A stretch of DNA of 64,000 nt, taken from Cephalotus follicularis. Taxonomy: Eukaryota; Streptophyta; Magnoliopsida; Oxalidales; Cephalotaceae. Where the stretch lies: positions 148,336 through 212,335 of the forward strand of contig BDDD01000349.1 in the NCBI GenBank assembly GCA_001972305.1, given 5' to 3'. The notes below the pieces were generated by a model that was not told the origin of the DNA, ran no database searches, and saw only the letters and a list, made by a program, of their open reading frames with translations. Positions 680 to 58,860 of the stretch are shown here, one piece after another; position 1 is the stretch's first letter; each line of letters begins with the position of its first letter. Position numbers and translations under genes: made by a program.

Positions 680-938
680 CAGTCGGCTGGAATCCTCACC
701 AGTCGACTGTTTCTGGGTCGAGCAGTATGAGTAGTCGACTGGTTCCTTCTACCAATCGACTATCCATTAGGCAGTCGGCTGTTGTACCTCAACAGTCGAC
801 TGTTCCAGTACTCATACACGAGAAAATGCCCATATTTCCATCTTCTGGGAAGTAGGAAGTATGAGTACCCAACTGCTTTCCATTGGCAGTCGACTGGTAT
901 AAATGAGTAGTCGACTGTCTTGCTTCGACAGTCGGCTG
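680..938. repeat. Cluster 1 of AGTCGACTG/AGTCGGCTG palindromes, A 3' LTR
   Basis: About nine copies of a 9-10 bp word, AGTCGACTG or its one-base variant AGTCGGCTG, spaced irregularly by about 15-90 bp. The first form is a near-perfect palindrome with the SalI core GTCGAC; some copies extend to CCAGTCGACTGG. The flanks are not repeated, so this is not a satellite with a fixed unit. Confidence 0.85.
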
Positions 939-1510
939 CTCTGCAGTCCAGTAGCATGCAAATCGATCTAACCACTCCAACAATTCACGGTAAGCAGCTA
1001 ACTTAAGTTCAGGGACAGGAAATACAACTACAGTTGTCATATCACTCATATAACAGTTTATCCAACATTCATTTCATCATGCAAACCAAGCCATACAAGG
1101 TTTAACATGCATGCACAATGACCACATTGATTCTCAGTAACAAGCATAACAGCTCTTAAAACAGTAACAATTACGTCCTAAAACCAGTAGTTACAACTCA
1201 TAGAACCAGGCATTGCAATTCATGGAACAAGCATTAAGTTTACCTCAAAATGCCATTACATCTTCCCCTACCTTTGATTCCAAGTTAGGAATCTGTAAGT
1301 CCACCTCTTTTCGTTCCAATCAGTGGCCTTTCGAGCTCCCCAGAAGCTCCAGCTCCAATCCCAGCAGCTCCAAGAACAGCTCCCTCTTTGAGCTCCAAGC
1401 CTCAACATTGGACAAACACTCTCTTTTGACTCTTTTCTTTGTGGTTTCTCTCTACTGTCTCTGTGATTCTCAAACTTAACAGTACCAGGACGAGAGAGGA
1501 TGAGTGGAGT

Positions 1511-1520
1511 GTTTTTATGC
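1511..1520 (-). promoter_or_regulatory. TATA-like element of the A LTR
   Basis: On the minus strand the word is GCATAAAAAC, just after a purine-rich stretch (1521-1556 read in reverse). The same word occurs at 8631-8640 in the other LTR. A TATA-like site at this place in the LTR would direct transcription leftwards; that is an inference from sequence only. It lies between the two palindrome clusters. Confidence 0.5.
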
Positions 1521-1759
1521 AGAGGCTTTCCTCTCTTCTTCTTCCTTCCCTCCTCACATGGAACTAAATGCCACACACTCCCATTCAATAAGCATGCACA
1601 CACTCACAGGCCTGATTCTCTCTGCCATATGAAGTCTGCATGATTCCCAGGTGTCCCTTACACTATCTCCTTCGGCTGCATGGAGTACATATGGTGCCCA
1701 CATCCTTCTTTCGGTGGTAACATGTGATTTCAGTCACATGCAACAAACAGGGCATGATC

Positions 1760-1911
1760 CAGTCGGCTGCCTTTCCCTCGACAGTCGGCTATTCGCCTGG
1801 CAGTCTGTTGCCAAGTGTCACGATAGTTGGCCAGTCGACTGGTTCATCCCACCAGTCGGATGCCCCCATATGCAGCCATCAAGTCGGCTGGTCCTACATA
1901 CCAGTCGACTG
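1760..1911. repeat. Cluster 2 of AGTCGACTG/AGTCGGCTG palindromes, A 3' LTR
   Basis: About seven copies or near-copies (AGTCGGCTG, AGTCGACTG, one AGTCGGATG, one AGTCTGTTG) in 150 bp, on the other side of the TATA-like word from cluster 1. The cluster starts some 150 bp from the LTR end that is the transcriptional 5' end. Confidence 0.83.
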
Positions 1912-2061
1912 CCCCTGCAATTTTACCAAGCAATCACACTTGAAAGTATATAATTGATTTAAGGGCAACACTATCTAATTGGAAAACCATCACTTTATTA
2001 ATTCCACAATAAAGTACATTTACATTGTGAAATACAATACATAAAAATCTTGGGCGTTACA

Positions 2062-2080
2062 TCCACCCCTCCTTCAAGGA
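2062..2080 (-). other. Polypurine tract of element A
   Basis: Directly inside the 3' LTR the minus strand reads AAGGAGGGGTGGA. Such a tract primes plus-strand DNA synthesis during reverse transcription. Elements C and G have almost the same tract at the same place. Confidence 0.88.
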
Positions 2081-2106
2081 ATTTCGTCCTCGAAATTAAA
2101 ACAAAT

Positions 2107-3534
2107 CTAGAACAAGTGCGGGTAGCATTCTCGGATGTCCTCCTCACGCTCCCAAGTTGCCTCATCAGGTTTGTGAAACTGCCATTGAACCTTGACCATA
2201 TAGATGGTTCGGTTCCTCAAGATCTGCGTCTTCCGATCAAGAATCCGCACAGGCAATTCCTCACAAGATAGATCATCCTGTACCGGAACAGTATCATAGT
2301 CCAGGACATGTGACGGGTCTGGGATATATCTCCTCAGCATAGATATGTGGAAGACGTCGTGCACGTTTGACAGTGCAGGAGGTAAGGCAAGCTGATAAGC
2401 TACCTCCCTGACTCTCTCCAAAATCTCAAAAGGACCAATGTAGCGCGGAGCTAATTTGCCCTTCTTTCCGAACCTTTCCACACCCTTCCACGGCGAAACC
2501 TTAAAGAACACATGATCGCCCACACTGAAGGTTAAGGGCCTTCTCTTGACAATGTCCGTATAGCTCTTCTGCCGACTCTAAGCAGCAAGCAGCTTCTTCT
2601 TGATCGTCCCGATCTTTTTGGAAGTTTCCTCCACCAACTCAGTCCCGAGTAAAGGTCGCTCCCCGACCTCATCCCAACACACAGGGGATCTGAACTTCCT
2701 CCCATACAGTGCCTTAAACGGTGCCATGCCGATACTAGAGTGATAGTTGTTATTGTAAGAAAACTCTATCAGAGGGATGTGATCCTCCCAAGTACCAGCA
2801 AAATCAATAATGCAAGCCCGTAGCATATCCTCCAAGGTCTGGATGGTACGCTCAGACTGCCCATCGGTCTGAGGGTGACAGGCAGTACTCAGGTTCGCTT
2901 CGTCCCGAACGCTGTTTGAAACCTCTTCCAGAAGTTGGAAGTGAAGATGGCATCTCTGTCGCATACAATACTGACTGGAACACTGTGTAATCTCACTATC
3001 TCCTTCACATATAAACGAGCTAGCTTGCTCGCAGGATCAGTAACATGTGTAGGCAGAATGTGCGTTTATTTGGTTAGTCTATCCACGATGACCCACACAG
3101 CATTATGACGGTTTTGAGGTAGAGGAAAACCCAAAACGAAATCCATCGTAACATGTTCCCACTTCCATTCTGGAATGGGCAAAGGTTGCAGCAAACATTC
3201 CCGGTCTCTGGTGCTCAGCGTTAACTGTCTGGCAAGTCAAACACCTCGCCACATACCCAGTGATCTCCCGCTTCATGTCGGGCCACCAGTAACACTTCTT
3301 CATGTCTTGATACATTTTTGTGCTACCCGAATGAATACTGTACAGGGATTTATGAGCCCCGCGGAGTAGCTCATCCTTCAGTCTCCTTTCATTCGGAAGA
3401 CATACACGTCCCCGATATCTCATAATACCGTCTTCGTGCACTCTAAAATCAGACTCTGAATCCAGATTCTCTCGAATCCGCTGTAATTCAGGATCATATG
3501 GTTGTGCATCTTTGATGTGATACAGTAACACTGG
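2107..3534 (-). pseudogene. A integrase with chromodomain-like C-terminus (broken)
   Basis: The integrase part would insert the cDNA into the chromosome. The N-terminal zinc-binding HHCC module is visible in the frame ending at 3103 (His60, His67, Cys97, Cys100 of that frame, spacing H-X6-H-X29-C-X2-C). The frame is lost at about 3170, where the first catalytic Asp would be. It returns at 2964 with the HPQTDGQSERTIQ segment that holds the catalytic Glu. A TAG stop at 2578-2580 replaces a Gln found in element G (LAAQSRQ). The last frame (2107-2523) holds GDHVFFKVSP, GKLAPRYIGPFEIL and a tail of chromodomain type ending EATWEREEDIRECYPHLF, which in chromoviruses is thought to guide insertion to heterochromatin. 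Non-functional. Confidence 0.93.
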
Positions 3535-4890
3535 TTATACCCGCATGTCAGCCACAAAAATCCCCGGTGACTGATTGAATGGAGACCACTCTTGGAAGTC
3601 TTCCAACATCTTCCATTGCGACACCATCGCACTAGCAAGCATAGCCTTGTGACTCAAGGCATCAACAACCACATTCGCTTTCCCCGGGTGATATTGGACA
3701 CTACAATCATAATCATTGAAGAATTCTACCCACCTGCGCTGTCTCATGTTCAGTGTATCTTGACAAAACAGATACCTCAAGCTTTGATGATCGGTAAAGA
3801 TCTCAAACTTTGCCCCATAAAGGTAGTGCCTCCACTTTTGAAGGGCGAAGCTAATAGCCGCAAGCTCAAGGTCATGAGTCGGGTAGTTTTCTTCATACGA
3901 TTTTAGCTTCCTCAAGGAGTATGCAATCACTCTGCCTCGCTGCATCAATACACAACCCAAATCCTTACCTGATGCATCACTATACACTGCAAAGCCCTCA
4001 TTACCATCAGGTAATGCCAAGACAGGAACGGAAACCAACCGGTCCTTCAGCTCACAAAAACTAGCCTCACAGTCTTCATCCCAGACAAAAAGAGTCTTCT
4101 TCCGGGTCAGTCTGGTCAAGGGTTCAGCTATCCTTGAAAAATTCTGAATAAACCTCCGGTAATACCCCCCCAAACCAAGGAACCTGCGCACTTCCGTCAC
4201 ATTCTTCGGTTGTGGCCAGTCTCTCACTACTTCAGTCTTTGACGGATCCACCGTCAAGCCTTCTCCAGATACTATGTGACCGAGAAAGATCACATGGTCA
4301 AGCCAGAACTCACCTTTGCCAAACTTGGCGTACAACCGGTGCTCTCTAAGAACCTGCAATACCATCCTCAGATGCCGAGTGTGCTCCTCCTCACTCCTCG
4401 AATATACCAGTATATCATCAATGAATACCACGACAAACTGGTCCAAGTACAATCGAAATACGTCATTCATCAATGACATAAAAGCTTTCGGTGCATTGGT
4501 AACACCGAATGGCATCACCAAGAACTCGTAGTGACCATACCGTGTCCGGAAGGCAGTCTTCTAAATGTCTCCTTCCCTCACTCTCAACTGGTGGTAACCC
4601 GATATCAAATCGAGCTTAGAAAACACCCTTGATCCTTGCAACTGATCAAACAAATCCTCAATGTGGGGTAAAGGATACTTGTTCTTGATAGTTTCTTTTT
4701 TCAACATTCGATAGTCGATGCAGAGCCTCATCGACCCATCCTTCTTCTTGACGAACAGTACCGCTGCACCCCATGGAGAAACACTGGGTCTTACAAAACC
4801 TTTATCAATCAGGTCTTGTAACTGTAGCTTCAGCTCTCGCAACTCAGCCGGAGCCATCCGATAGGGTGATTTAGAGATAGGAGCCGTTCC
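3535..4890 (-). pseudogene. A reverse transcriptase and RNase H (broken)
   Basis: The RT fingers and palm begin near 4890 ([27 protein letters not shown]) and continue to a TAG stop at 4561-4563, where related copies have a sense codon. The next frame (from 4521) carries [11 protein letters not shown], the catalytic FIDD box near 4414-4425, then the connection and RNase H ([26 protein letters not shown]). The frame closes with TAA at 3535-3537 in MRV-stop, where element G has MRAQ, so a Gln codon was lost. The length and order match an ordinary gypsy RT-RH. It is not active as it stands. Confidence 0.94.
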
Positions 4891-5517
4891 AGGAACAAGA
4901 TCAATAACGAACTCCATACTCCTCTTGGGTGGTAAGGATCCCAAGTCGTCAGGAAACACATCTGGAAATTCGCACACAACTAGAAATTCCTCCAAGCTCA
5001 CGCCTTTCTCCTTCCTTCGATCAATAACATAGGCCAAATATCCCTCGCATCCCTTCTCCAGGTATCTCGATGCTCGGATAAAAGATATGATCGGTGTTGA
5101 GAATCCCTTGTCTCCCTTGAACTGAAAAGTCGTTCTGTCGGGCAGACAAAAATCCACAGTCTTATGGTAGCAATCCATACGAGCACGGTGTGCCGATAGC
5201 CAATCCATCCCCAATATCACATCGAAGTCATGGATAGGCAGTACAATCAAATCTGCATAAAAAGGAATGCCTGCCATAGACATCTCACAACAACTATATA
5301 CCGAGTCAGTATACATAGAAGTCCCAATCGGTGTACTCACATCAAGTATATAAGACAAACAGTCAGGGGTGACATCTAAGCAAGATGCAAAATGTGCAGA
5401 TATAAAGGAATGTGATGCTCCAGAATCCATCAGTACTCTAGCAGAATAACCATATATATACAGAGTACCTCCAACAACAGAAGTCGACTCTGGAACCTCA
5501 GTCTGAGCAAGTACAAA
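4891..5517 (-). pseudogene. A aspartic protease and linker to RT
   Basis: In the frame 4561-5967 the retropepsin active site DSGA is at residues 181-184 (about 5416-5427), preceded by a small beta-strand region and followed by VILGMDWL (residues 250-256), the second conserved part of plant gypsy proteases. The stretch after it ([20 protein letters not shown]) links to RT and is the same segment at which the G copy starts at 62064. The frame is open here, but the polyprotein is broken on both sides. Confidence 0.88.
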
Positions 5518-6670
5518 AATTCTACCTTTTGGGATGCCCTTGCCTGTATCCCTCCTCTGTGATGGTCCCGCAGCCGCACCACTGCTGCTCCCTGGCCCAG
5601 TAGGCGCTGTAGCAGAACTCTTTGGGCAGTCCTTCACTGAATGACCCGGTGCCCCGTACCTCAAACACCAGCCATTGAACTTCCAGCAATCTTTTTGTTG
5701 GTGGCCGGTACGACCACCGTAGAAGAATCCTCCAGATCTAGCATTACTCCCCTGGCTGGGAGTACCCTGTGAAGCTGTTTGTTTAGACTTGTTCTTCGAC
5801 GACCTCGTCGGAGAACCACCATCTTTCCACTTTGATGTTGCCGGTCGAGACTGTGTAGGACTCTGTTTACTCTCCTTTGCGCGAGCTCTCTCAGCCCCGT
5901 CCTCACTGGATATCGTCTCCAATAGTCTAGCTTTCTGAGCAACCTCCACATAAGTTCTCAGCTCCATGGCTCACATCCTTGACCGAAGATCCGGTCGCAA
6001 CCCTCTCAAGAACCTTCGTATATTTTTTTGCTTCGTCAGCTACCAGATAAGGTGAATGCCTGGCCAACTCCATGAATCTTGCTTGATATTCAGCAATAGT
6101 CATCTCTCCCTGTCGTAACTCCAAGAGCTCAGTCTCTCGTCGCTCTTGCTCAATATACGGAACATTAGTCTCCAAGAACTCAGTCTGGAATCTGTCCCAA
6201 GTACTGTCCAGTCCCTGTGATTCCCACTTTGCCCTAACCATTTCCCACCAATGAGTGGCCTCACCCCATAGGCGGTACACAGCAAATTTCAGCTTCTGAG
6301 CATCAGTACAGTCCATCACTTCAAAGATCTTTTCCAAGTCTTGCAACCACCTTTCAGCGATAGTAGCATCAAGCTCTCCCTTGAAGCTGGGTGTATTCAA
6401 CCTCATGAACTTCTCAATATCTCTCCCAAAACTATCCTCTCCTGGGCAGTGGCCAGGAGCCCTATGTTGCGGTCGAGCTTGCGCGTGGTACTAGCGCATC
6501 TCCTCCGCACTAGCCCTGTTAAAGGCCATCTGTTGCTGAAAATAGTCTGTAATCTGAGCCATCGGATCTTTGTCATCTTGGGGAATGTTCATCCCTTGCG
6601 GAACATTATCTTCTTTTGGGGCATTAGCTCCAACGGCTCTAGCCCTAGCACGTGTTCTCCTTCGGTCCAT
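5518..6670 (-). pseudogene. A gag (broken)
   Basis: The gag start is probably the ATG at 6668-6670 (MDRRRTRARARA), matching the same start in element C. The retrotransposon gag core follows (ERWLQDLEKIFEVMDC, FAVYRLWGEATHWWE, FLETNVPYIEQERRE). There are three breaks: TAG at 6491-6493 in EEMR-stop where C has Gln; a 2-bp TA duplication near 6018-6024 that shifts the frame; and TGA at 5971-5973 in the restored frame, where C has Arg. Of the two CCHC knuckles, the first has lost both leading Cys ([14 protein letters not shown]) and the second has Tyr for the second Cys ([14 protein letters not shown]). Not functional. Confidence 0.92.
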
Positions 6671-6764
6671 TTTCCTATAAGAAGATTGACGGTCAGTCAC
6701 GACTTTAGGAAAACAATTCATTAATTTCCAAGGAAAGTATCCTAGCTAAGCATATATGGAATAT

Positions 6765-6776
6765 GCTCTCATACCA
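6765..6776 (-). other. Primer binding site of A (tRNA-iMet type)
   Basis: The minus strand reads TGGTATGAGAGC four bases inside the 5' LTR. The usual plant initiator-Met site is TGGTATCAGAGC, which element C has exactly; A has one C-to-G change. Confidence 0.9.
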
Positions 6777-7805
6777 CTGTTGTCACACCCCGTTTAAGAC
6801 AAACGCAACATTAAAGCGGTAAAGGCAATTAACATATAAAATACAGCTCATGCAAAAACCATAAAATTTTAAACTTTTCCAAGGTACAACAGTTGCGGAA
6901 GCATAACAGAACATAAGCTGTAACTCGTAACGTGCGTCCCATACCGCACGCTACCCAAATACAAGTCATCATAGTTAATCGCCCATAAAACAGAGCGTGA
7001 ATTACAGTACAAGATTAAACTCCATCAGTAACAATACCATAACAACGGTACATCCAAAAACCATAACCAACATAGGTTTAATACAAAGCAGGAGAATAAG
7101 CAAAATTAAGGACATCACAACTTGATCTTCTTCCATGTCAGTCCAACCGGTCCACTGCATCAATCTGTAAAGTAGGGGGTTAGCCATTGTCCTCACTCGG
7201 CTAAGTCATAAAAGTAACTCAGGATCAACATAATGCATGTCATGATATGAATGCATAAATGATGCAGTGCAGTGGAGACCCAGTTTATACATATATGAAA
7301 AAATATATATATACTTATAACGGTACAGTAAATACCACTACTCGTCGCTGGCAGCCTCCGCCATGCAACTAGTAGCTCAAACGCAAACACATAGCAATTC
7401 ATAGAGCAAACAGTGAATTCAAACAGTAACAGTACAGTAAACAGTAATGATCGTTTAGATCGACGACAGGCAGTTGTTTTCCAAAATGTTTCCAAAAGTG
7501 ACAACATTTGAAAATAGACATTTTCAGTAGAAAATAGATCAATAGACTGTTTCAGTAGTGTAAATTGTTATCAGTTCGGTCGAAAATACGTTATTTAACC
7601 TATACATATTTTCATACTTAAAATATCATATTCCGAGTTCATATATGCATTTCTAAATATCAATACTTTAGAAATCATAAACAATTCACAAACAATATAC
7701 AATCAGGCAGTAATCAGTGCAAATGCAATGCATACAACTGCTCAAATGTACCCTAATAGGAATCGGGATCGTTTCGCATCGTTTTTAGGCAAACAGCAGT
7801 CCAAC

Positions 7806-8064
7806 CAGTCGGCTGGAATCCTCACCAGTCGACTGTTTCTGGGTCGAGCAGTATGAGTAGTCGACTGCTTCCTTCTACCAATCGACTGTCCATTAGGCAG
7901 TCGGCTGTTGTTCCTCAACAGTCGACTGTTCCAATTCTCATACATGACAAAATGCCCAGATTTCCATCTTCTGGGTTGTAGGAATTATGAGTAGCCGACT
8001 GCTTTCCATTGGCAGTCGACTAGTATCAATGAGTAGTCGACTGTCTTGCTTCGACAGTCGGCTG
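7806..8064. repeat. Cluster 1 of AGTCGACTG palindromes, A 5' LTR
   Basis: Same array as 680-938 in the other LTR, with single base changes between the copies. It shows that the array was present in the element before it inserted. Confidence 0.85.
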
Positions 8065-8630
8065 CTCTGTAGTCCAGTAGCATGCAAATCGATCTAACCA
8101 CTCTAACAATTCATGGTAAGCAGCTAACTTAAGTTCAGGGACAGGAAATACAACTACAGTTGTCATATCACTCATATAACAGTTTATCCAACATTCAATT
8201 CATCATGCAAACTAAGCCATACAAGGTTCAACATGCATGCACAATGACCACATTGATTCTCAGTAACAAGCATAACAGCTCCTAAAACAGTAACAATTAC
8301 GTCCTAAAACAAGTAGTTACAACTCACATAACTAGGCATTGCAATTCATGGAACATGCATTAACTCAAAATACCATTACAACTTCCCCTACCTTTGATTC
8401 CAAATTAGTAATCTGTAAGTCCACCTCTTTTCGTCCCAATCAGTGGCCTTTTGAGCACCCCAGAAGCTCCAGCTCCAATCCCAGCAGCTCCAAGAACAGC
8501 TCCCACTTTGAGCTCCAAGCCTCAACAATGGACAAACACTCTCTTTTCTCTCTTTTCTTTGTGGTTTCTCTCTACTCTCTCTATGATTCTCAAGCTTAAC
8601 AGTACCAGGAAGAGAGAGGGTGAGTGGAGT

Positions 8631-8640
8631 GTTTTTATGC
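8631..8640 (-). promoter_or_regulatory. TATA-like element, A 5' LTR
   Basis: GCATAAAAAC on the minus strand. In the 5' LTR this would be the active promoter copy of the element. Inference from sequence alone. Confidence 0.5.
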
Positions 8641-8879
8641 AGAGCCTTTCCTCTCTTCTTCTTCCTTCCCTCCTCACATGGCACTAAATGCCACACACTC
8701 CCATTCAATAAGAATGCACACACTCACAGGCCTAATTCTCTCTACCCTATGAAGTCTGCATGATTCCCAGGTGTCCCTTACACTCTCTCCTTCGGCTGCA
8801 TGGAGTACAGATGGCGCCCACATCCTTCTTTCAGTGGTAACATGTGATTTCAGTCACATGCAACAAACGGGGCATGATC

Positions 8880-9031
8880 CAGTCGGCTGCCTTTCCCTCG
8901 GCAGTCGGCTGTTCGCCTGGCAGTCTGTTGCCAAGTGTCACGACAGTTGGCCAGTCGACTGGTTCATCCCACCAGTCGGCTGCCCCCATATGCAGCCATC
9001 CAGTCGGCTGGTCCTACATACCGGTCGACTG
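8880..9031. repeat. Cluster 2 of AGTCGACTG palindromes, A 5' LTR
   Basis: Same array as 1760-1911. It lies 150-300 bp from the 5' end of the element, upstream of the TATA-like word. Confidence 0.83.
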
Positions 9032-9181
9032 CCCCAGCAATTTTACCAAGCAATCACACTTGAAAGTATATAATTTATTTAAGGGAAACGCTATCTAATT
9101 GGAAAACCATCACTTCATTAATTCCACAATAAAGTACATTTACATTGTGAAATACAATACATAAAAATCTTGGGCGTTACA

Positions 9182-11229
9182 TTGGGGGAATTATACTTGT
9201 AAATTCGAGTTCAAAATTGATGTTTGTTCATTGGTGATATGCATGATTTTCCATCACTGTTTTGGACTGATTTTGTTTACGAGTTTGATGCTTTGATAAG
9301 CTGGATATGTAATCTATTATTGCATGTCGTTTATGGATCTATATCAAATAGATTTGCATAATTATTGAGCTTGAACTTTACTGATTTTATTGGACGAAAC
9401 AGACAGCAATTTTGGGCAAGTATGCTTGATTGCATGTTGATATGGATTGATTGAGATTGCTGGATTGTTGTTATGGCTACTGTGATATGCAAACTGATCA
9501 TACATGTGTTCCCTACGTGGATAATTGGACTGGAATTGCATGTGTATTTGATTGTAGTTGCTGGTTTTGCAATAAATTGAGGAAGACGATGATCTGGGCA
9601 CATAACCATCGACGCTCACGTTATAAGCGTTGACGCTTTGGACTGTAAAACGCAGAATTATCACTGAATGCGTATTAAATGTCGACAACCATGGTTTTTA
9701 GTGTAAATGTAGGCGTGATAAACATCCATGCTTGAGGTCCTTCCTCAAGGCGTCAATGCTAAAGGTAAAGCGACGATGCTCGAGGTTCCTTACCTTGAAG
9801 CGTCGGTGCCAAAGATAATTGATGACGCGAAGAATACCAATGGAAAGCACTGACGCTATGGAGTTGAGCATCGACGCTTAGAGGACAGAATCGTCGACCC
9901 CAAAATGATAAACGTCGACGCTTTAACGCACTGTTTTGTATATTTCACTTAAATGACGTACGTTGACCCCGATTCAAGTTTAGATGCATTTAGAGCATAT
10001 GTTTGCTTTGCATATTGAACTGTTGCTTGACTGTGGATTGACTATGACTGATTTCTGAAATTGTTTCGTCTTTCTAGAAATACCTGCATGATTTTGAAAG
10101 AATCAATATTTTGTATGAAATGATATATTTCACAAAATGTATAATTCAAAATGACTAAGGAAATGACTTCCAATATTGTAAACTGTTTATAGTATTTTCT
10201 GTACAATGAAAATGCATGATTTCAAGTGTTTATAACTTTTAAACGACTTGAAATAAACTGTTGTATTTTAATCAAGTAATAACTTATATGAATTACTTGA
10301 ACTGTACTGTGATTGCATTGTGACTGCACTATGATTGGACTGTGATTGTGATTGCACTGTACTAGTTGCGTGGCGGAGGTTGCCAAGGATGGCTAGTGGC
10401 AGGGTTAACCTAGGAGCCAGGAGTTGGCTGGGTAACTCACTGTACTGTTAGCTTGCTTCATGTTGTCCAGATCTGGGACAAAGGTAAGATTGCGACGTGG
10501 GGCCAGGAGTTGGTGGTGTTTGTTCGTACTGACTGACTGTTGACTGCTCCCATTGTGGACTTACTGTGACTGGTCCCTTGCGTACATGGCTATGACTGTG
10601 TTAATGTAGGCCTGGCCGGGTTGCAACTGTACTATTGATATACATATATATATTTACATATGTATATACTGTTATATATACCGTGCTGCATCACTATGAC
10701 TTCATTTCATGCCATGCATTAATATTGATCCCGAATTGCACTTATACTTAACCGAGTGAGGACAAAGGCTAACCCCCAACAATTTTAGATTGAAGCTGTT
10801 AGACCGGTATGGACAAGCTCGGAGATAAAGGAAGTTATGATAATGTTTCTATTGGAATTGTATTTCCGTGGAGTTTAATGAACTGCTATTGTAATCAATG
10901 AACAATGTGATTGTAAATGGCAGTTAAATATTGTGTACTGAATTACGGAAGGAATAATGTGGGACTATGTTTTGATTGTTTTTGAAGGATAATGTTTTAT
11001 GATCACGCTCTGTTTGAGGGAAATCGATGACGTTGGGTTATTGTTTTACTGTTTTAGGTAACATGTAGTATGGGATGCATGTTATGTTTTTATCTTCGGC
11101 TTATAATATAATGCTTCCGCAAGATATTAACTGTTATGGAAAGTTTTAAATTTTACCATTTTGTATAAGCTGAATATTTATGTTGATTTCCATTACCTAT
11201 GTACTGTTTATGGAAAACGGTGTGTGACA
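9182..11229 (+). repeat. B copy 1: plus-strand Tekay-type LTR, cut at its left by element A
   Basis: It aligns from its first bases (ggggaattatacttg) with 19604 onward in B copy 2 and then past the C insertion to 29657. It ends with GTGTGACA and is followed by CTAAT (11230-11234), the target duplication also seen left of B copy 2. The missing first 830 bp or so should lie beyond element A, left of the window. No coding frame; the short frames at 9331-9688 are chance. The end holds the word GCTTCCGCAA (11112-11121), as in the other Tekay LTRs. Confidence 0.88.
9608..9922. repeat. Cluster of GCGTCGACGC-type palindromes, B copy 1
   Basis: Words such as ATCGACGCT, AGCGTTGACGCT, AACGTCGACGCTTT and CATCGACGCTT occur about ten times. 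Many have drifted from GTCGAC by C-to-T or G-to-A changes (GTTGAC, ATCGAC, GTCAAT), as expected for methylated CpG. Confidence 0.78.
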
Positions 11230-47972: not shown

Positions 47973-49423
47973 CTAATAGCTGGTAGGCTCATCATCCTCG
48001 ATGATTTTGGGTTCATCAGTGCCTTCAACGAGAAAACCATATCTCTTGGGCGCTGTTGAAACCCTGCCTAATCTCCTAAAAGTAGGAGTGCCTGTATGAG
48101 ATCTAATCTCATGCCGGGATCTAATCTCAGCTGTGTCTTTAGAGGTACTAGCCTCTAGTTCCTTTCCACTGTGTGGTGTTTCTTCCAGTGGCAACTGCTC
48201 AAGTTCCACTTTTCTCCCACTGCTTCCTGCAAGTTGGTATTGCTTCTCCAGAAAAACTACACTACGCGAAACAAACACTTTTTGTTCTCTAGGATGGTAG
48301 AAATAATATCCCATCGTTTCTTTGGGATACCCCACTAACCGGCACCGATTTGATCATGCCTCCAGCTTACTAGGTTCCAACCTTCTAACGTAAGCTGGAA
48401 AGCCCCAAACCTTTAAATGGTTCAGGCTAGGTTTCCTCCCTTTCCATACCTGGTATGGGGTAGAGGGAATGGATTTCGAAGGAATCCAGTTAAGGACAAA
48501 TGCAACTATTTCCAGTGCATAACCCCAAAAAGAGGTAGAGAGGTCTGCAAAAGACATCATGGACCGGACCATATTCATCACGGTCCGATTCCTCCATTTG
48601 GACACACCATTATGCTGTGGTGTTCCTGGAAGGGCCACTGTGTGAGAATCCCATTATCTCAAAGGTAATCCTGGAACTCAACAGACAGGTACTCGCCCCC
48701 TCAATCTGATTGAAGAATTTCAATGGGCTTACCTGTTTGCTTCTCTACTTCATTTCTAAATTCCTTGAACCCATCAAAGGAATCTGATTTGTGTCTCATC
48801 AGAAACACGTACCCGTACCGTGACAAATCATCGGTAAAAGTAATGAAGTATAGATATCATCCTCGCGCACTAACCGACATACGTCCACAGACGTCAGTGC
48901 GGATTAAACCGAGTAAATCCACCGCCCTCTCTCCTTAACCGGAGAAGGGAGATTAGGTCATTTTTCCAAGCATACAAGATTCACATGTTCGAAAGGACTC
49001 GAAGTCCTGGATGTCCAATAGACCATCCTTAACCAACTTTGATATCCTTGCTTCACTAGGATGACCCAATATGTAGTGCCAAGTATAGGATTGATTCATT
49101 TCATTATTCTCTCTTTGTCTTTTAGTTCCTTTTTCGATTGACAATGTCGTTTTGTAATAAGTATTTAAAACATAAATCCCATTATCAATGTGGCTCTCAC
49201 ATATAATGATTTTTTCACTTGATAAAAGAGAACAACCATTCACATTAAAATTTACCTCTAAGCTCAATTTAAACAGGTATGAAACACTAACAACGTTCCG
49301 AATTAAGTTCTCAACCAAATAACAAGGATACAAACTTATTACAAAACCACCAGGAAAATGTAAAACATAAATTCCTACAACTCTTGTAATGATCCTTGAT
49401 CCATCACCAAGTCGTAGGTCCAC
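47973..49423 (-). pseudogene. E integrase with pre-integrase zinc module (broken)
   Basis: Frame 48953-49423 holds the N-terminal zinc module (WHYILGHPSEARISKL...CESCMLGKMT). Frame 48354-48638 holds GTPQHNGVSKWRNRT, with Lys where the catalytic Glu of the GVSERRNRT-type box is expected, and SFWGYALEIV. Frame 47973-48335 holds the C-terminal YFYHPREQKVFVSRSVVFLE. The middle with the two catalytic Asp (48650-48940) is out of frame. Confidence 0.9.
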
Positions 49424-49453
49424 TGCTTCTTCAGCTCTAAGTTGCCTTGCACT

Positions 49454-50136
49454 TCATAGACCCTGCCAAGAATTGCAAATATTAGTACCACAACCAGTGT
49501 CTAACACCCAAGTAGAACTAATATTAGAAGTTACATGAAGCTCAATCATGTAGGTACCTGAACCTGAGGCACCAGCAGTGGAAGCAAGAAACTCCTTGCA
49601 GTCCTTTTTCCAATGTCCCGGCCTTTCACAGAAGAAGCAAGCCATCTTCCTTTTAAGCACTGCATCCTACTCTTAGTAGCACCCCTCCGACCAAGAGGCC
49701 TCTCCATTAGAGTGTTACCCTTGGAACTACCCCTCGCAGAGGTGGTTCCATAAAATGGAAGAGACATTACAGACGAGTTCAGTCATTCAAGGTCAAAATC
49801 TACCCCACCAGTCCTCGACTGTGTGCCATACAACTCCTTGAGTTGCATCAGTATGGCACGTAAGGGCTGTAAATGCTCACACAGCCTTTGCAATTCAGGC
49901 ATCATGCCTTCAATTTCTAGGTAACGTGCTCGATCATCGACAAACCACCACTTGGCCACCATAGCCTTATGGTCCTCAGAGGGGTTGGTACCTAGTACCA
50001 GGTGTTCCTCAATCACAACATGAGAAACATTCAAGCTTCCTAAATTGAGGAGCAGATTTTGCTGCCAATCAAGGAAATTTGACCCAACCAGTTTTTTAGT
50101 CTCTAAGACTTTTGCAATAGCGGCGTAGCCAGACAT
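49454..50136 (-). pseudogene. E gag and protease start (broken)
   Basis: Frame 49783-50136 is the gag N-terminus (KLVGSNFLDWQQNLLLNL). Frame 49454-49660 holds one CCHC knuckle (CFFCERPGHWKKDC) followed by the protease active site in WVLDTGCGTNIC. The start ATG at 50134-50136 is the natural gag start, after the leader. Confidence 0.9.
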
Positions 50137-51496
50137 TTTAGCAAGTTGTATAACACAACCTATCAGAAACAGTAGATATTATTTGCAAATATTCTTATTT
50201 ATCCATTTTCCATGTTACTAACACTTGGCCTTTAGTGCTTATGGTTCCTCCCACTATTTTAATTGTATCCCACACCTCCATGTGGAATCTGGGAGATCTA
50301 ATCTCCTACGGGGATTGGAATCTACCTCAGCATATTATGGCCACAGCTTTAGCATGACAAACCACAACAGCCAAGATAGGTAGTCTCACTTACCAATATA
50401 CACAGCTCGGGATCTAATCCCACATGCTTGTGTCAGATCCAATCATAGCTTCGGCCTACCAGCTCAATATGATCTCAGCTTTAGCATGACAAACCATTAG
50501 AGCCAGTATAAGTCTACACCCACAATCCTCAAAGTAATACACATGTTTTGGCACCCACACGTTTCTGTGTCCAAGTGCAAAACATTGTGATTTCCTCGCA
50601 GTATCAGATACTGACGTTGACATGACACTAAACAGATCGCAGACCTTAGCTTTAGCTAACAAATCCAAAATCTGCCAATGCCACTCAACGAGAACTATGG
50701 AAGGCCACGTTGGGTCACACTTAGTGCCCCTGGCGTTAAGACTTATTATTTCAACCTCAGAGGGATTTTAGGTATCACATTTTAATTAAGCTGGTCCATT
50801 AATTAATTCATTGGTTATCTTAGCCAAATCCAATTAATTACGGCTTACATGCAATGACGTAATTGGACCAATTGTCCAACGCATGCATCCGATGTACAAC
50901 ATAAAATATGGTTAGGCTAGGGACAATTCTATACTGATTCACATGAACCAATGTTATCACCATGTCTCCTAGGTGATCTATTTAATTCTACTTTATTACA
51001 AAGAATACCATGCATCCATGGCCTTCATCTTGCTCTTGCAACTTTCTTGATTTTTCCTCTCCATCGATTCTCCTTCTTTTGCTTACAAAGCTTTTAATAA
51101 AATTTACATTTAAATTTTAAAGAAAATAATATATTCTAGAGAAGAATAAAAAATAAGAAACTAAGGTGCTCGCAGGCCACCAAAATTACAAACCCAATAA
51201 AACAATAAAGCAAATTAAACATCCACGAAAAAAAAAATCTAGGTCATGTCCCTTAGCCTACCATCATGCATATCACATCCAAAATTATATCTAATATAAA
51301 ATTGAAGGAAAACTTAACAGTTTTAATTTTCGATGGCTAATCGAATGAAGTGTGGAACAATTTGGTAAAACTCCCACCGAATTAATCAAAATCCAGTATC
51401 ACAGGGATTACAAACCATAATTCCAAGTACCATAAATTCAATCCAAAACAACCACCAAAAAACCAAATTAATGCTTTACTGGTGTTAATTAGTTGT
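50137..51496 (-). other. Untranslated leader of E
   Basis: 1.36 kb without coding frames, in part (50225-50600) well conserved with the leader of D. No known RNA element is recognised in it. Confidence 0.75.
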
Positions 51497-51507
51497 CTCT
51501 GATACCA
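51497..51507 (-). other. Primer binding site of E (tRNA-iMet)
   Basis: The minus strand reads TGGTATCAGAG two bases inside the LTR. Confidence 0.92.
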
Positions 51508-51509
51508 AT

Positions 51510-53737
51510 TGTAAGAGTAAAACTAATATTATGGTCATTTTAGGCGTTAGGTAGATAGATTGTTCAACTTTAATTTTCATTAAAGTGGCTCAAAACGGAT
51601 CAACCGTTATGTAATACCATAAATGAATATAATCATGCCAGGATCTCTAATCAACAAATAATAGATAAACAATTCGATTTATACACACACACACACACAC
51701 AGATATATAGAAGGACATAGTTTATACCAAGCAACCAAAAATCCTTCCTTCAAGTTTTCGTTCTGAAACTTCAAGCTTTCACTCAGGAACAGATCGCAGC
51801 GGAATAGCCAACATAAAAAAATACCTATATTACTAATCCTAATCTAGGATTAATACATGGAATGTAGAGCTCAATGCAAGCAATACACCACCTAGTGTAA
51901 TCAAGTTGTGGTGAGTTTCAGTATTGTTTTCTTTCTCTCTGTTTTGTTTTACACTAAGAAAAAAAACTAATGCACTATTGCTTTCTCTCTTTCTTAAAAC
52001 CACGTACACGGCATGAGCAAGAAAAAAACCAAGACTCCAAAAATGTGTCAACTGATTGCCTTTTATGCATTCACGAATGCATGGTAATGATCCACCAATT
52101 GTGGATCATGATAATGGCAGCCAAAGCAAGAAAACAAGACTTGAAAAACCGTGTAAACTAATTGCCTTTTATGCATGTTAATGATCCACCAATTGTGGAT
52201 CATGCTCAAGGCGGCCAAAGCAAGAAAACACGTTTTAAAGATTCCCTACCACGAAAAGAGATGCCATTTCCTTTCTTTTTGCCGCCATTCCATTTTGTAT
52301 TTTCATGATATAAGGCTTACCATTTTACCGTTCCATGATACATGCATAATAAAAAAGCAAACCGTGTTTTGTCTTCCTATAATGACAAAACACAAAACAC
52401 ATTTAGTCCATTCATTAGCCATGCAATAGCCATGTAGAGAGAATGAGAGACAAGAGAAATACATAAATTAATTATCCATTAATATCAAAAACATATTACT
52501 ATATTATGTCAACTAAACAGTCACATAACATCACTAATACACCAAGATATAACATGTGGTATCACACGTTATAAAAAACAATGCGATATATGTAACTAAT
52601 ACATATACTCCTGAGGTAGGACCCAAAAGTCCAGAATGAATTGGTAACAATGGTGTGTTACTAAGATGCCTTGCTCTTAAGTAAACTTACCATAAATAGT
52701 CCTTGACTACTTTTAAGACCCTGGACCTGTGACTATAACATTGTAGGTGTGTAAATTAATCCCTTGATTAATTTCCACAATTATGTATGTTTTCGATACA
52801 TCTGATACTTTATACTGACGACAGTTACCGTGTACTATAATCCCTCATCATCCTCAGCTCCGATCATGGTCTAGGGTAAGGATACATGTCAACCCTAGAT
52901 TTGCCGGTATCTATAAATCCATATTTTATCATCATGACTATCGACAAGCCTTATCGAAAACCCTAGGTTCCAGCTCTCCATAACCTAACCAAGTATTTCA
53001 AAGTCCATAATGAATACAGATGCTATAAAGCCAATCACCCTCATATCAGGTGTGACGATTCCTTGTTACGCACTCACTTACATTCACATAAATCCTGTAA
53101 GACCCAAAGGCTGCCTGTTTGCCAATCCCGCGAGAGAACTGGCTAGGGCAGAAATCAAAGTCAGACAGTCTCTATGCAATGAACAGCAGCCGCTCAGGTC
53201 TAAGGATCAGACAAGTCAATTCAAAACTTGCTTGGCTCGAAGAGTCTATACACTACTGTCTCAGACAGGAAACTCTACTGACACAGGATATGTGACCATC
53301 CAAATAGAATTCCCATGGTGGGTCTTGTTCAGTGTACATGCTCTCAGCACGAACCCCGCATTAGCTTTAGGGTTCAACCCAAGTGGCAATGAGATACTCC
53401 ACCCTCCCATTCGCGAGAGCAAGTAAAATACGACTAGTCTGTCTGGTTCATAAATGCCCGTAGTAAGTGAACCTATGACTTTGAATAGTTTAGCCACAGG
53501 GAATAAGGAAGTAACCCTCATAGCCCTTAGCTCAACAACCAACCCTTTGATGTGACAGGGCACCATATATGTAAGCATTGTCATGCTTCGATTATGTGAT
53601 AAAACATATATAGTTATGCCAACAATAAATACAATTTGCACAGTGTAACATGGATAGAACTAGACTATTTTTATAATGAGCAGAGTACAAGTACATCGAA
53701 CCATCTAGTGGCTTAACGGGTCACAGTCTCTCTAATA
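51510..53737 (-). repeat. 5' LTR of E (2228 bp)
   Basis: TGTAAGAG at the inner side. The outer end has drifted to CTCTAATA where the left LTR has CTCTTACA. A (CA)n run is at 51684-51701. No GTCGAC cluster. Confidence 0.92.
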
Positions 53738-53944
53738 ATAAGAGCCGACCACTAGAGCTTACAACTCCCTTAGGTCGAGTAATGGATTGTTGAATTGACA
53801 TTGAATTGTAGACGAGCTATTTAACATCCATGAATTGTTTCCTGCTAAATCCTTAGAACTAAGACATTTTCTATTTGGAGCGTTGGCGCTTATCCTAAAG
53901 GCAGACCTCAGAGGAAGATGTTAGAACTTTCCAAGCTCCAAGTC

Positions 53945-55085: not shown

Positions 55086-55825
55086 AAAACAATCTTACTC
55101 CTTTTATATATGACATGTGCTAATTTGTTATGGCAATATCAGTTGTGTTTTATCACTTAATTGAAGTAGTTTGTTATTTAGCTACTTAAGCTTGTGATGC
55201 CCTGACATAATGTTGGATGCCTACCATGGAGGCTGTGAGATTGATTACCTTATTCCTTATATCGTATTAGTTCCAAGTCATAGGTTTACTTTGTGGTCAT
55301 TAGTGAACCGGATAGACTTGCGCGTATGTTGCTTACTCATGGAATTAGATGATGGATTCTCTCACTACCATCTGTGTTGGACACTAGGGCAAATACGGGG
55401 AGTGCGCTAGGAGCGTGTACACTGAACTGGACCCGCGTAAGAGACACTGTTTGGATAGTCGCTATTCTGGTGTTAATAGTGACTCGTACTTGTTGCGGTT
55501 GTGTATAAGTGTTAGTCACTTTGCGATTTCTCGAAGTTGTCTGATCCTTAGACCTGACCGACTGCTCTATATTGTGTGGTGATGGTTATGCTTTGATCTC
55601 CACCTTAGCCAGTTCTTGCGCAGGGCTAGCAATCCAATGGTTTTTGGGTATGATCGAATCTATACAAATATAAGCGAGTGCGCAATAAGGTATTGTCACA
55701 CCTAAGCGAAGGTGATTGACCCTATGATGGCCTAATTATGCTTTAGACTTATGAAATCCTTGGCCAAGGTTGATGTAGATTGGAAATTAGATTTCTGGAG
55801 AATCTACCAAAGGTCATAGTAATAA
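55086..55825 (+). repeat. Copia LTR fragment related to E, opposite orientation
   Basis: Similar to the E LTR in reverse: TTATGGCAA/TTTTATCAC, GATGCCCTG, TTCCTTAT and TTCCAAGTCATAG follow in the order of 46300 down to 46140. It is diverged and broken at both sides. Short frames at 55210-55519 are chance. Confidence 0.65.
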
Positions 55826-56182
55826 TGTAATACCCCGTTTTTCTAAATATATTTTTTGGGCTTTTCGATCTGTTTTGTGTGGGCTGTCGATTTTTTTTCG
55901 GTTTGTGGACTGCCCATTTTTCGGTTTGTTTTGCTTTTGGCTAGGCTAAGCGGGTTTTGGCCTTAGCCTAGTGGGTTTTGATATTAAGTTTATGATTAAA
56001 TAAAATAATTTTGGCTTTTTATTTATTTGTTAAAAACCATTTTCAGCATTTAAAACATTCAAAAACCCTATTTTATAATAAAAAAAATGATTTCTCTCCC
56101 ACTCTCTCTCTCTCTCCCCGCCACCATCTCTCCCGTTCTCTCTCCCCTCGCAGCTGCTATCACCGGCATTGGTGCCGATATG
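55826..56182 (+). repeat. LTR fragment L (TGTAATACCCCG start)
   Basis: It opens with TGTAATACCCCG, a common start of plant gypsy LTRs, and is cut after 357 bp by the LTR of G. It holds TTTTATAATAA and a CT run (56094-56150). No second copy in the window. Confidence 0.6.
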
Positions 56183-57538
56183 TGTCACACCCCGTTATTT
56201 ACATTCACGTAATAATGGACCAGCATATGTGGTGATATCAGAATTAAGCATAAATAATATTCCAGCACAATTCATAAATAAATTTGCGGAAGCATTCGAT
56301 AAGCCAGAATATAATAATACAACCCGTCTGCACGCATCCCATACTACGTGCGGGTAAATCCAACAATTATCCTTACATAAGGAAAATAACACAACGAGGT
56401 ATGAACCGTTCAATTACAAATTACGGTACGATTAATATAACAAACTTAAGCAACAAAAAGAAGTTCTCCAAGCTTCAGCAGCAGTCTCCAAATGTCCTTG
56501 CTTAATCTGAAATTGTAGGGGTTAGCCGTTGTCCTCACTTGGCTAAGTAGAATGATAATGTATGATAAAGAATATATGAATGCAACATGTATGACCGTTT
56601 ATATCAAAATAATATTTAAATGAGCCAATATATATATAAGCACTCATGCCAAGTGGCCATAAACACTTCATATGCAAGAATACCGCACAAGGGTACAATC
56701 AATTCATCCATCAATTGGGTGTCACATGTCGCTAACTCCTAGCACCGACTGTGCACCACCTATCTATCACCTTACGCTCCGAAGATGATAAATTAGGTAA
56801 CAATTACTACCGGCGTTTAGCGGGTAGTTTAACAATCAATCAAGCTCTGCAATTGCAGGCAGTTTTGGTGTGTACTCTAGCCAACTCCTGGCACCTAGGA
56901 CCACCTCCGTTAGCCAGTGAAATCTGCCATCACTCGACTAATCGGCAATAACATAGACAATCAATTCAATCAGTGCAATTCAATATAATATTACATATAT
57001 GTATAATATGCAATATGAAACTTGTTTTCTTTAGAAACATTAACAATTCATTTATCGTACTTCTCTTAGGAGGAAAACGATCTCAATTCAATAGTGGTTT
57101 CCAATTTGGGGAAACAAAACAGTAGGTACCTCTCAAATAGGAGGGAAATCAGTAGCTCATTTGGCAATAATCATTCTTTTGAAAATGATAGTTAATATCA
57201 TAAATTGGGTACATAGCCCATAGTTGGTTTCAATCATTGAAATACAATTGGTAGTGGTGTTAGAAGTCACCAAAACAGTTTATACTTAATATGACAGTAG
57301 CATATTCAGTAACAATATCATAATTCAATAGTTCTTGCAATAAGAGTTTTCACTTGAAAATGGTGTTTAAAACCATGCATTGTACATATAGTACATATTT
57401 CGTTCGATTGTTGCAATACAAGTAGTAGTGATGTTAAATAACATCAAACAGTATGTACTACATGTTGGTAGCATAAACAATTCAACAACAGTATCAATCA
57501 GTAGCAATTCGATCAATGTCATGCAATTCTACCCAGAA

Positions 57539-57610
57539 CAGTCGGCTGCCATGAAGAACCAGTCGGCTGCTGGGTTGAGTAGTCGACTGCTTTGGGTGGC
57601 AGTCGACTGC
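57539..57610. repeat. Cluster 1 of AGTCGACTG/AGTCGGCTG words, G LTR
   Basis: Four copies in 72 bp (two AGTCGGCTG, two AGTCGACTG). Same word type as A, fewer copies. Confidence 0.82.
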
Positions 57611-58780
57611 CTCTGCCCAGAAAATACAGAAATAGCAAGTCATGTAATGCCAATTCAATTCCCAATCAATTCAATACATGTAATTATGCAGAAAATAAAC
57701 ATACACAATATGCATACTCATATCTTCCATAACATATCATTACCCCTACCTCAAATCGCTATCCCAAGATCAATTGAGTTTGATCTTTCTCTTTGAGTTC
57801 GAAGTCACTTTTGTCAATCACTCTTTCAATTTCCAGTAGTATGATCTATGCATGTTTGTTTATGAACACATGCATCAATATCAGTAGGTTTCAGTGACTC
57901 TAATAGTGGTTTAATCATTAACATCATTCCTACCATTCCACTATATTTCTTAAACTCTATGTCAAGTATCATTTATTTTCGATTCATTGTTCTTCACTTG
58001 TTTTGACAGAAGATATATATATATATATACATGAAATCAGTATGTATATACATGCTAATCAATTACTATAATCATTATCTAGTTGCATCAAGAATTACTA
58101 GAACTTTTAAGTCTCTAGTTCCATTTAAAACACTCTCCATATTCCAAATAATTTACTCAATCCATCTACTGATTTGCATGTTTCAACAGTAGGTATATAC
58201 ATACTTAGGAGTCATTAAGCATATCCTAACATTAACAAAAATTATAATCCATTATAGAGACTATATCACAAATTCCACTTGATTTCATTATTACTTCCCA
58301 TTTCAATTCCAAAGATTGTTATTCCAATCCATTAACAGAAGATATACAACATTCCTAGTCACATTTTATCACCATAACAACAAGAATTTCGGATCAAGGA
58401 CTTACCAAGAGTCTAAAGCTTCAAAGTCCCTTCTTTGAGCTTTCCCCAATCCTACCAATGCAAGCTTTCAATGATTCCTCTTTTCACTTAGTGTTTCTAA
58501 CACTCAACAACATTCCATGAGTAGATATAACTCTCAAGGACCTTTTAATTCGTAAGATTTGTTACCTACTCACATGCACTCACATTTTTCTTTCATTCTT
58601 TCCACCACATGCCTCCCTCACTTCCACTTTCTCTCTTAATCAATCAATTTGGTGGTTGGTGGTCTGCAGAGAACATGCAAACATTCACTTTTGCATATTC
58701 TGGCAGGTGGTGAGACATAAGTGCCATTCCCCACCTGTCATTCTTGTCTTGCACATGCCAAAAACCTGTTCTGGCAATTC

Positions 58781-58860
58781 CAGTCGACTGGACATAGTGG
58801 GCAGTCGACTGCCTTCTTCACGTGGCAAACAGTCGGTTGTTGCCCTGTGACAGTCGGCTG
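58781..58860. repeat. Cluster 2 of AGTCGACTG/AGTCGGCTG words, G LTR
   Basis: Four copies in 80 bp (CAGTCGACTGG, GCAGTCGACTGCC, CAGTCGGTTG, CAGTCGGCTG), 170-250 bp from the LTR 5' end. Confidence 0.82.

Follow-up and report, generated by a model that had tools for sequence, protein, structure and literature searches.

Retrotransposon LTRs of the window

The window analysed here, 64,000 bases of contig 349 of Cephalotus follicularis (BDDD01000349.1, positions 148,336 to 212,335), contains nested retrotransposons whose long terminal repeats (LTRs) carry clusters of a short palindromic word with the core GTCGAC. Clear word clusters were present in seven LTR families, termed A, B, C, G, K, M and H, and in one of the three LTR copies of a copia element, D. 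The first-pass annotation had counted at least eight LTR types; seven stood up in shuffled controls, and copia D did so in that single copy only. The LTR ends were set from paired repeats, TGTAACGCCC...GGGGTGTGACA termini, primer sites and target-site repeats. The names Tekay and Athila are used as presumed labels, given on the basis of structure.

Element A lies on the minus strand. Its LTR A3 (1..2061) is cut by the window start and has cluster I at approximately 1762-1910 and cluster II at approximately 682-968, in the dialect CAGTCGACTG/CAGTCGGCTG. The interior (2062..6780, minus strand) encodes gag, protease, reverse transcriptase, RNase H and a chromodomain (Pfam) and has no word cluster; the profiles included RVP_2, Retrotrans_gag and Chromo (30.5 bits, cut-off 25.1). 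The second LTR of the same element, A5 (6781..9181, minus strand), was defined by its TGTAACGCCC...GGGGTGTGACA ends and a primer-binding site (PBS) at 6765 with 1 mismatch, and its clusters are at LTR positions 153-295 and 1089-1369. The reverse transcriptase of A gave no match in viral contigs, and none of the 57 candidates for its gag in the protein collection reached E ≤ 0.001.

LTR B1 (9184..11229, plus strand), the start of which was removed by element A, has dialect 2 words at 9608-9914 and 87.7% identity to B2. B2 is a solo LTR on the plus strand inside the LTR of copia D, in two parts: 18766..20332, with the TGTAACGCCC start and words at 18977, 19057 and 20028-20221, and 28299..29657, beyond element C, with a word at approximately 28304 and the GGGGTGTGACA end at 29657. 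The nesting of solo LTR B in copia D is marked by a target repeat of the CTAAT/TTAA type, and D3 represents the site without B. Element C (20333-28298) was inserted into B2 directly adjoining a B word, with a target repeat of about TAAAC. Its LTRs, C3 (20333..23316, minus strand; clusters 22969-23106 and 21655-22193, dialect 3, GACATCGATGTC-like) and C5 (24969..28298, minus strand; clusters 27969-28304, of which the final word belongs to B2, and 26644-27181), have 94-96% identity, and C5 has an extra stretch of ~350 bp. The LTRs of C are ~3 kb long, the interior is just 1.65 kb, and gag alone was found in it; C is probably a non-autonomous element.

Solo LTR G (41744..44300, minus strand; clusters 43963-44103 and 42998-43170) is nested in the left LTR of copia E, as judged by comparing the flanks with the other LTR of E. 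LTR K (56183..59031, minus strand, right end approximate) has dialect 1 clusters at 58783-58858 and 57541-57602, and its element gave a Chromo score of 18.2 bits, below the cut-off of 25.1. LTR M (35052..37506, plus strand) is probably truncated at its start and has words at 35811-36148. The solo LTRs B and G were grouped with the Tekay-type elements by LTR homology, and M by its LTR end and position.

The Athila-type LTR H (32042..33492, minus strand) has cluster I (33080-33271) around a TATA box and cluster II at 32245-32364; the TATA-like sequence CTTATATATAAG (33142..33153) is one base from the GTCGAC at 33155. The element has a tRNA-Asp-like PBS, TGGCACCGTTGCCGGGG, at 32025 (1 mismatch in 17) and a Retrotrans_gag match of 50.1 bits. 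We take this type of PBS to be an Athila marker.

Three copies of the copia D LTR were found on the minus strand. D2 (17669..18765), a part of the LTR, has words at 18015, 18369 and 18391, further CpG-decayed words, and the TATA box GTATATAAG near 18156. D3 (33493..35051, continuing 37515-38129) has mostly decayed words, and D1 (11230..12259) is a wordless part of the LTR with a polypurine tract (PPT) at 12260. The LTRs and interior of copia E (44301..53739, minus strand) are without the words. D and E are presumed copia elements: E has a GAG-pre-integrase domain, the DNA of D is 68.5% identical to part of the E interior, and D and E have the same PPT, AAGTGGGAGATTGT.

Enrichment of the words in LTRs

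The window contains 50 copies of GTCGAC, whereas its dinucleotide frequencies predict 5.6. The annotated LTR stretches (29,907 bases, with those of E left out) contained 47 of the 50; the remaining three were at 5483, 23979 and 54323. The words RTCGAY, GTCGGC and GCCGAC were counted in each LTR and compared with 500 dinucleotide shuffles of that LTR. The LTRs of A had 18 and 16 words (1.3 and 1.1 expected), those of C 15 and 13, B2 11, H 13, M 9, G 8 and K 7, and none of the 500 shuffles reached the observed number in any of these; B1 had 6 words (3/500). D2 had 5 words including three GTCGAC, for which 0.11 were expected (0/500), and D3 (3 words, 80/500) and D1 (1 word, 294/500) showed no significant excess over the shuffles. 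GTCGAC itself was present once in each LTR of C (96/500 and 109/500), where the cluster is made of GTCGAT, ATCGAC and ATCGAT.

Copia E had been described as free of the word, and this was borne out: its LTRs had 0-1 words, with no significant excess over shuffles, and its interior 4 against 2.6 expected (134/500). The word counts in the interiors of A (4 against 4.8 expected), C, K and D, as in that of E, were not significant in the shuffle test. LTRs shuffled to equal composition did not reach the density of the clusters (0/500 in most LTRs). Chance or composition as the cause of the clusters was ruled out by these per-LTR shuffles together with a control palindrome, matched to dialect 2 in base and CpG content, which had 3 occurrences in the genome. 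The CpG-decay products GTTGAC and GTCAAC were present in the window at just 1.6 and 1.4 times expectation, although many word positions of old copies, copia D among them, are occupied by these forms.

Dialects and symmetry of the word

GTCGAC proved to be the middle of a longer palindrome with a TCGA centre, which occurs in three dialects: CCAGTCGACTGG (dialect 1), AGCGTCGACGCT (dialect 2) and GACATCGATGTC (dialect 3). Symmetry was measured at 851 TCGA sites from the window and from a sample of twenty 10-kb stretches (L021-L040), drawn non-randomly from a set position in each of contigs 1-20; 13,568 of the 200,000 bases in the sample are N, and L040 is 96% N. The arms were symmetric over at least four bases at 32 sites, against 9.7 with random re-pairing. 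Eight of nine control 4-mers gave ratios of 0 to 1.7 in the same test, and the excess at the ninth, ATAT (76 symmetric against 21.8), is presumably caused by AT repeats.

Most of the 37 clusters with at least four RTCGAY sites hold mainly to a single dialect. Dialect 1 was seldom mixed with dialects 2 and 3 (the exceptions being M and one L035 cluster), whereas 2 and 3 mix more. Arm symmetry was 2.763 matches of 5, remained at 2.765 after partners were shuffled inside clusters, and fell to 2.40 after a global shuffle. The arms are thus symmetric because each half-site follows the dialect of its cluster on its own, and such an independent half-site preference is to be expected of a dimer that reads two equal half-sites. 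Hairpin base-pair compensation within the words was ruled out, as shuffling the right arms inside clusters left the symmetry unaffected.

These data also bear on the proposal that RNA or single-strand structure is selected, with the palindromes pairing to form hairpins or dimers that serve RNA dimerisation or packaging or are substrates of Dicer. Folding z-scores of the clusters were as low as -8.1 and -6.5, and 13 of 14 were below -2 (the second cluster of G gave -0.6), so that the RNA signal suggested in the first-pass annotation is possible; strong predicted structure is known for Sirevirus palindromes (in excerpts of PMC10760457). However, four of nine cluster-free control segments were also below -2, that of K at -4.5, no within-word compensation was seen beyond cluster composition, and pairing does not depend on a TCGA core common to every lineage or on distances in helix units. 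The structure is real but accounts for neither the core nor the spacing, and we consider selection for it quite improbable.

Spacing and helical phase

From 276 adjacent word pairs, 112 were dropped as redundant (75% spacer similarity), which left 164. Pairs less than 12 or more than 130 bp apart and spacers with N were excluded, and the LTR copies A3, B1, C5, D1 and E5 were omitted from the non-redundant tests. The start-to-start distances between neighbours concentrate at 19-22, 30-32, 42-43, 48-52 and 70-73 bp. The 164 non-redundant pairs gave a vector strength of 0.45 near 10.2 bp, which none of 3000 jittered sets reached. Distances above 24 bp alone gave 0.36 (n = 120, 0/3000), and the phasing was present separately in the window LTRs and in the sample (0/1000 jittered sets each). 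The six lineage groups taken singly had best periods of 10.05-10.45 and strengths of 0.57-0.85, calculated without a null.

Across the genome, GTCGAC pairs were found 41,498 times at 20 bp and 105,145 times at 21 bp, compared with 696 times at 14 bp and 582 times at 26 bp. The spacing had been called irregular, and this description had to be abandoned; the distances are in helix units. The three-turn spacing is a weaker preference than the two-turn spacing: a shorter 4+4 base pattern occurred 13,201 times at 31 bp and 5,218 times at 26 bp. Phasing of 21-nt small interfering RNAs (siRNAs) was ruled out as the source of the spacing, as 30-32 and 48-52 bp are preferred too. The two-helical-turn rule points to protein binding rather than to RNA structure. 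One recurrent family departs from the two-turn register, with its GTCGAC pairs separated by 14 bp (GTCGACTCGGCAGAGTCGAC and related sequences; L018 and other places).

The 60 listed 21-bp pairs contain 45 different spacers, and 28 spacer cores are mutually unlike. Adjacent spacer cores were 34.5% identical (31 pairs), less than the 40.8% of non-adjacent ones at the same locus; an earlier version of this test, with the arms included, had given 43% for adjacent and 34% for random spacers. As the spacers are diverse, and adjacent ones resemble each other no more closely than do other spacers at the locus, the array is not a tandem repeat. An origin by satellite or tandem duplication was ruled out on these grounds, in agreement with the earlier view that satellite descent does not explain the clusters. 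The Tandem Repeats Finder rows that touch clusters are 57560-57610 (period 20, in K), 27144-27185 (period 23, in C5) and 32542-32645 (one word).

Occurrence in the genome and across retrotransposon lineages

In the 1.58 Gb of genome searched, the 12-mers of dialects 1, 2 and 3 had 14,615, 28,659 and 18,133 occurrences, and the same sequences read backwards 45, 37 and 39. Among 6-mers with 20 or more copies in the sample, the five with the highest enrichment were CGACGC, GCGTCG, CGTCGA, TCGACG and GTCGAC, at 5.8 to 11 times expectation; GACGTC was likewise enriched (3.8 times). A GTCGAC pair pattern also matched 16 loci in viral contigs. Restriction of the clusters to the window, raised earlier as a concern, did not apply, in view of the enriched 6-mers in the twenty sample stretches and of words in all nine Athila-type stretches from elsewhere.

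The dialects cut across the Ty3 and copia lineages. Dialect 1 was found in the Ty3 elements A and K and in the copia element L037 (copia gag and integrase); dialect 2 in Ty3 B, Athila-type H and copia D; and dialect 3 in the Ty3 elements C and L030 and in three Sirevirus-type copia elements, L021, L035 and L038, all with copia gag. L021 has the exact Sirevirus PPT but an inexact junction, L038 the junction with 1 mismatch, and L035 the exact junction, with no PPT seen in the stretch examined.

Matches between lineages at E ≤ 1e-3 were 19-79 nt long, TG-repeat matches with E aside, and those that were placed fall on word clusters. The match between B2 and H is 50 nt and that between D2 and B2 19 nt; L037 matches A and K over 34-79 nt, and L021, L035 and L038 match C over 24-53 nt. 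The matches of the sample LTRs (five stretches, both strands) to the window elements sit on word clusters and track dialect. Gene conversion between lineages, one of the causes put forward earlier, has little support, and exchange of short pieces is possible.

Divergence of the array was seen among relatives of the Athila-type H LTR (40 scored of 8,586 candidates, 63 matches). Ten copies have an alignment that ends at ~232 and restarts at 371-447, spanning cluster I, and others align through. The cluster I stretch was examined in nine of the ten (L041-L049), and all nine had 4-7 intact words in differing arrangements. When decayed words were included, 59 of 68 distances were 20-21, 30-31, 41-45, 49-52 or 62 bp, with a strength of 0.70 (n = 68, 0/2000); these copies are related and hence non-independent. 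The LTR stretch 232-408, which bears the TATA box in the window copy, is strongly divergent although the flanks are ~80% identical. It looks as though this stretch were replaced or reassembled at a high rate, and the Athila-type array seems to be re-formed fast while keeping to one word and one helix register.

A further proposal is that the words have no function and spread by slippage, tandem duplication, gene conversion, template switching or insertion hot spots. The families are old and nested, element C landed immediately next to a B word, palindromes are reported as targets of LTR retrotransposons (in excerpts of PMC6911290), and same-dialect elements of different lineage match over up to 79 nt on clusters. 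Duplication, however, would not produce distances of 20-21 bp between words whose spacers are unrelated, nor the near absence of pairs at 14 and 26 bp, and the unlike adjacent spacer cores described above also stand against it. We regard this origin as extremely improbable.

Position within LTRs, TATA boxes and CpG content

In the Tekay-type LTRs A, K, B, C and G, read in the element sense, the first cluster is at ~150-340 and the second within ~1,090-1,660. The distances between GTCGAC pairs in the sample likewise peak below 400 bp, are near-absent at 450-750 bp, and peak again at 750-1,300 bp. A, B, C and G have homologous blocks near the LTR start (A-G, B-G, B-C), mid-LTR and past the second cluster; K has only short blocks in common with them, past the second cluster. 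The two-cluster layout is clearly inherited within the Tekay-type group while words and spacers turn over. The first-pass annotation had treated the Tekay-type LTRs as unrelated families, which the common layout contradicts, and had considered the sequence between copies unrelated from family to family, which holds for most spacers and not for the homologous LTR blocks around the clusters.

In the LTR of H, the TATA box is at position 342, with words at 222, 312, 333, 376 and 408; the second cluster, at LTR positions 1,129-1,243, is probably transcribed. In copia D, intact words are ~210-230 bp upstream of the TATA box GTATATAAG, with decayed ones closer, and two words, one of them decayed, are downstream of it.

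The CpG observed/expected ratio was 1.2-1.9 in ten clusters of dialects 2 and 3 and 0.49-0.72 in four clusters of dialect 1. Between clusters, stretches of ~300 bp had few CpGs (A5 400-710, none; B2 400-710, one; C3 500-800, two; G 500-800, two), and the G+C content of these stretches was still 43-46%. Comparison of the two LTRs of A (209-2062 against 7333-9182) showed CpG differences at 1 of 37 sites in words against 16 of 70 outside (p = 0.005). The decay of word CpGs was not clearly lower in C (7/54 against 36/147 outside, p = 0.08) and was not reduced in B (11/38 against 38/132, p = 1), and D had too few sites (1/4 against 27/75). As decay was reduced in A but not clearly in C or B, protection of the words after insertion is not established.

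A candidate dimeric host factor

On balance, we consider it somewhat more likely than not that the clusters have a cis-regulatory role, as arrays of sites at which a host DNA-binding protein, or a few related ones, acts as a symmetric dimer and controls the LTR promoter. Each palindrome would take one dimer, with the half-sites read separately around the TCGA centre. Neighbouring dimers would usually be separated by two helical turns and in fewer cases by three, four or more, and, sharing one face of the helix, could touch. The array would most likely recruit transcription in the LTR, and different lineages may have acquired or kept the same class of site because it gives access to the same host factor. 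That there are three dialects may be due to related proteins or to tolerance for different flanks. The word and its dialects, dyad form, spacing, LTR location, genome scale and sharing across lineages are direct observations, and from them we infer protein binding, the dimeric form, cooperativity and activation. Words flanking the TATA box in H and D, together with the two fixed sites in the Tekay-type LTRs, support a role in transcription. A shared host factor had been one of several options in the first-pass annotation, and it is the best of them given the two-turn spacing, the independent half-sites and the occurrence of one word in elements of Ty3 chromovirus-type, Athila-type and copia descent; within the Tekay-type group, however, the layout is common by descent.

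Several observations weigh against this candidate factor. The pattern used found no TATA box in the nine Athila-type stretches, cluster II of H is downstream of the TATA box, and no convincing TATA box could be placed in the Tekay-type LTRs; the words can therefore be called upstream activators only tentatively. Copia D alone showed no phasing (n = 9, 1169/2000), in a small sample. The control word ACGT had an unexplained period near 10.6 bp with a strength of 0.28 (0/2000), and among the controls CATG, AGCT and TGCA (strengths 0.08-0.12; 43, 42 and 291 of 2000 jittered sets as high), we also count the values for CATG and AGCT on this side. Kinship among copies may still inflate n despite the 75% filter. 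The low folding scores in 13 of 14 clusters, although shared by 4 of 9 control segments, belong here as well, and a silencing role would show the same anatomy.

Recruitment of silencing is the main rival to the promoter reading, although an unlikely one in our estimate. A host silencing factor would bind the phased repeats and bring RNA polymerase IV (Pol IV), siRNAs and DNA methylation to the LTR, and the words would be kept only because they also drive transcription. In excerpts of PMC12270911, tandem TTTTGCTTAT repeats of Arabidopsis are the binding sites of REM (B3) factors, through which GDE1, CLSY3/4 and Pol IV are recruited, and maize Sirevirus palindromes are small-RNA hot spots (in excerpts of PMC5311732 and PMC10760457). 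The likeness to the REM-GDE1-Pol IV motif lies in the repetition of a site at a fixed register and in a plant factor predicted to be dimeric; REM loci with a two-base gap between repeats showed no enrichment, and the one-base gap is the bound form. The REM motif differs in its direct rather than inverted repeats, its 11-bp step, its silencing outcome and its sequence (the same excerpts of PMC12270911). Moreover, a word that served silencing alone should vanish from successful lineages, yet each dialect was found at 14,615-28,659 places.

The dimeric factor might instead be an AP2 protein of the CBF/DREB1 type, with the LTRs acting as cold or drought enhancers. The CBF/DREB box is RYCGAC, and GTCGAC, GTCGGC (that is, GCCGAC) and ATCGAC fit it. 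Dialects 1 and 2 agree with the box, but the ATCGAT of dialect 3 (GACATCGATGTC, 18,133 copies) does not, and CBF/DREB alone was therefore rejected as the factor. AP2 domains are not known to need a dyad or a two-turn array. The tomato Rider LTR bears dehydration-responsive elements (DREs) and a CBF site, but Rider gave no cold response (both in excerpts of PMC6762207). Taken together, we find a CBF/DREB1 factor very improbable.

More tentatively, and with somewhat less confidence than would favour it, one cooperative symmetric host protein, or a small paralogous set with one member per dialect, could be a promoter key shared by four or more lineages of LTR retrotransposons (Ty3 chromovirus-type, Athila-type, Sirevirus-type and other copia), with retrotransposons as its main binding load. 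The genome contains more than 140,000 two-turn GTCGAC pairs. If true, much of the repeat fraction would be tied to a single factor for its activity or silencing. The arrays address the question of how different retrotransposon families of one genome are switched on or silenced together, and a spacing-constrained class of site common to Ty3 and copia elements makes a search for its binding protein concrete. The arrays could be used to capture the factor and to locate the regulatory parts of uncharacterised LTRs.

Relation to known palindromic arrays

The palindromic repeated motifs (RMs, or RM boxes) of Sireviruses are the closest known system. According to the portions of Bousios et al. (2010; PMC2829016) consulted, RMs are Sirevirus-specific, have a CGG-CCG core in all elements but Tnd-1, are present in at least eight palindromic copies per element with 3-14 in the 3' LTR, and are missing from the classic copia elements compared there. 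The arrays described here resemble them in their many palindromic copies, LTR clusters and family-specific word with a common core. RMs are moreover CpG-rich, their clusters being CpG islands upstream of the TATA box; here, high CpG ratios were seen in the clusters of dialects 2 and 3, and words on both sides of the TATA box in H and D. The nearest RM words in those portions are that of Vitis, CGGTCGACCG, which contains GTCGAC, and that of Tnd-1, ACAATCGATTGT, with a TCGA centre. Copy numbers are also in keeping with RMs, at 18 words per LTR in A, 15 in C, 13 in H, 11 in B2, 9 in M, 8 in G, 7 in K and 5 in D2.

The differences are a core that is TCGA in all three dialects rather than CGG-CCG (with Tnd-1, which has TCGA too, as the exception), hosts that are mostly Ty3 chromovirus-type and Athila-type, dialects common to several lineages, and helical phasing; no spacing rule for RMs was found in the same portions of PMC2829016. 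The window families do not qualify as Sireviruses by the PPT AGGGGGAG and the CA/ATTGG-TATCAGAGC junction. As they lack the core and host-lineage features, the arrays were not classed as RM boxes; by analogy, they may work like them. Palindromic LTR motifs, described as Sirevirus-specific, are thereby extended to other lineages.

Among the open-licence papers listed in literature searches, we recognised no description of such arrays outside Sireviruses, Ty3 elements included, the DRE boxes of Rider apart. The maize Sirevirus palindromes, as given in excerpts of PMC5311732 and PMC10760457, are clustered in LTR regulatory regions and vary fast among copies, as does the Athila-type cluster I; their lineage and word differ from those found here. 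Rider offers a likeness in the sites for host stress factors in a plant LTR promoter, but neither a palindrome array nor helical spacing was found in the excerpts of PMC6762207.

The geometry has a further parallel outside plants. The EBNA1 sites in the latent origin of Epstein-Barr virus are palindromic dimer sites, paired 21 bp centre to centre. EBNA1 is a viral protein acting at a replication origin, and the likeness is in geometry only.

Other repeats in the window

A 163-bp unit is repeated 3.7 times at 62063-62659 in the pol region of K, flanked by a 1.29-kb duplication (60778-62064 and 62664-63950, 97%).

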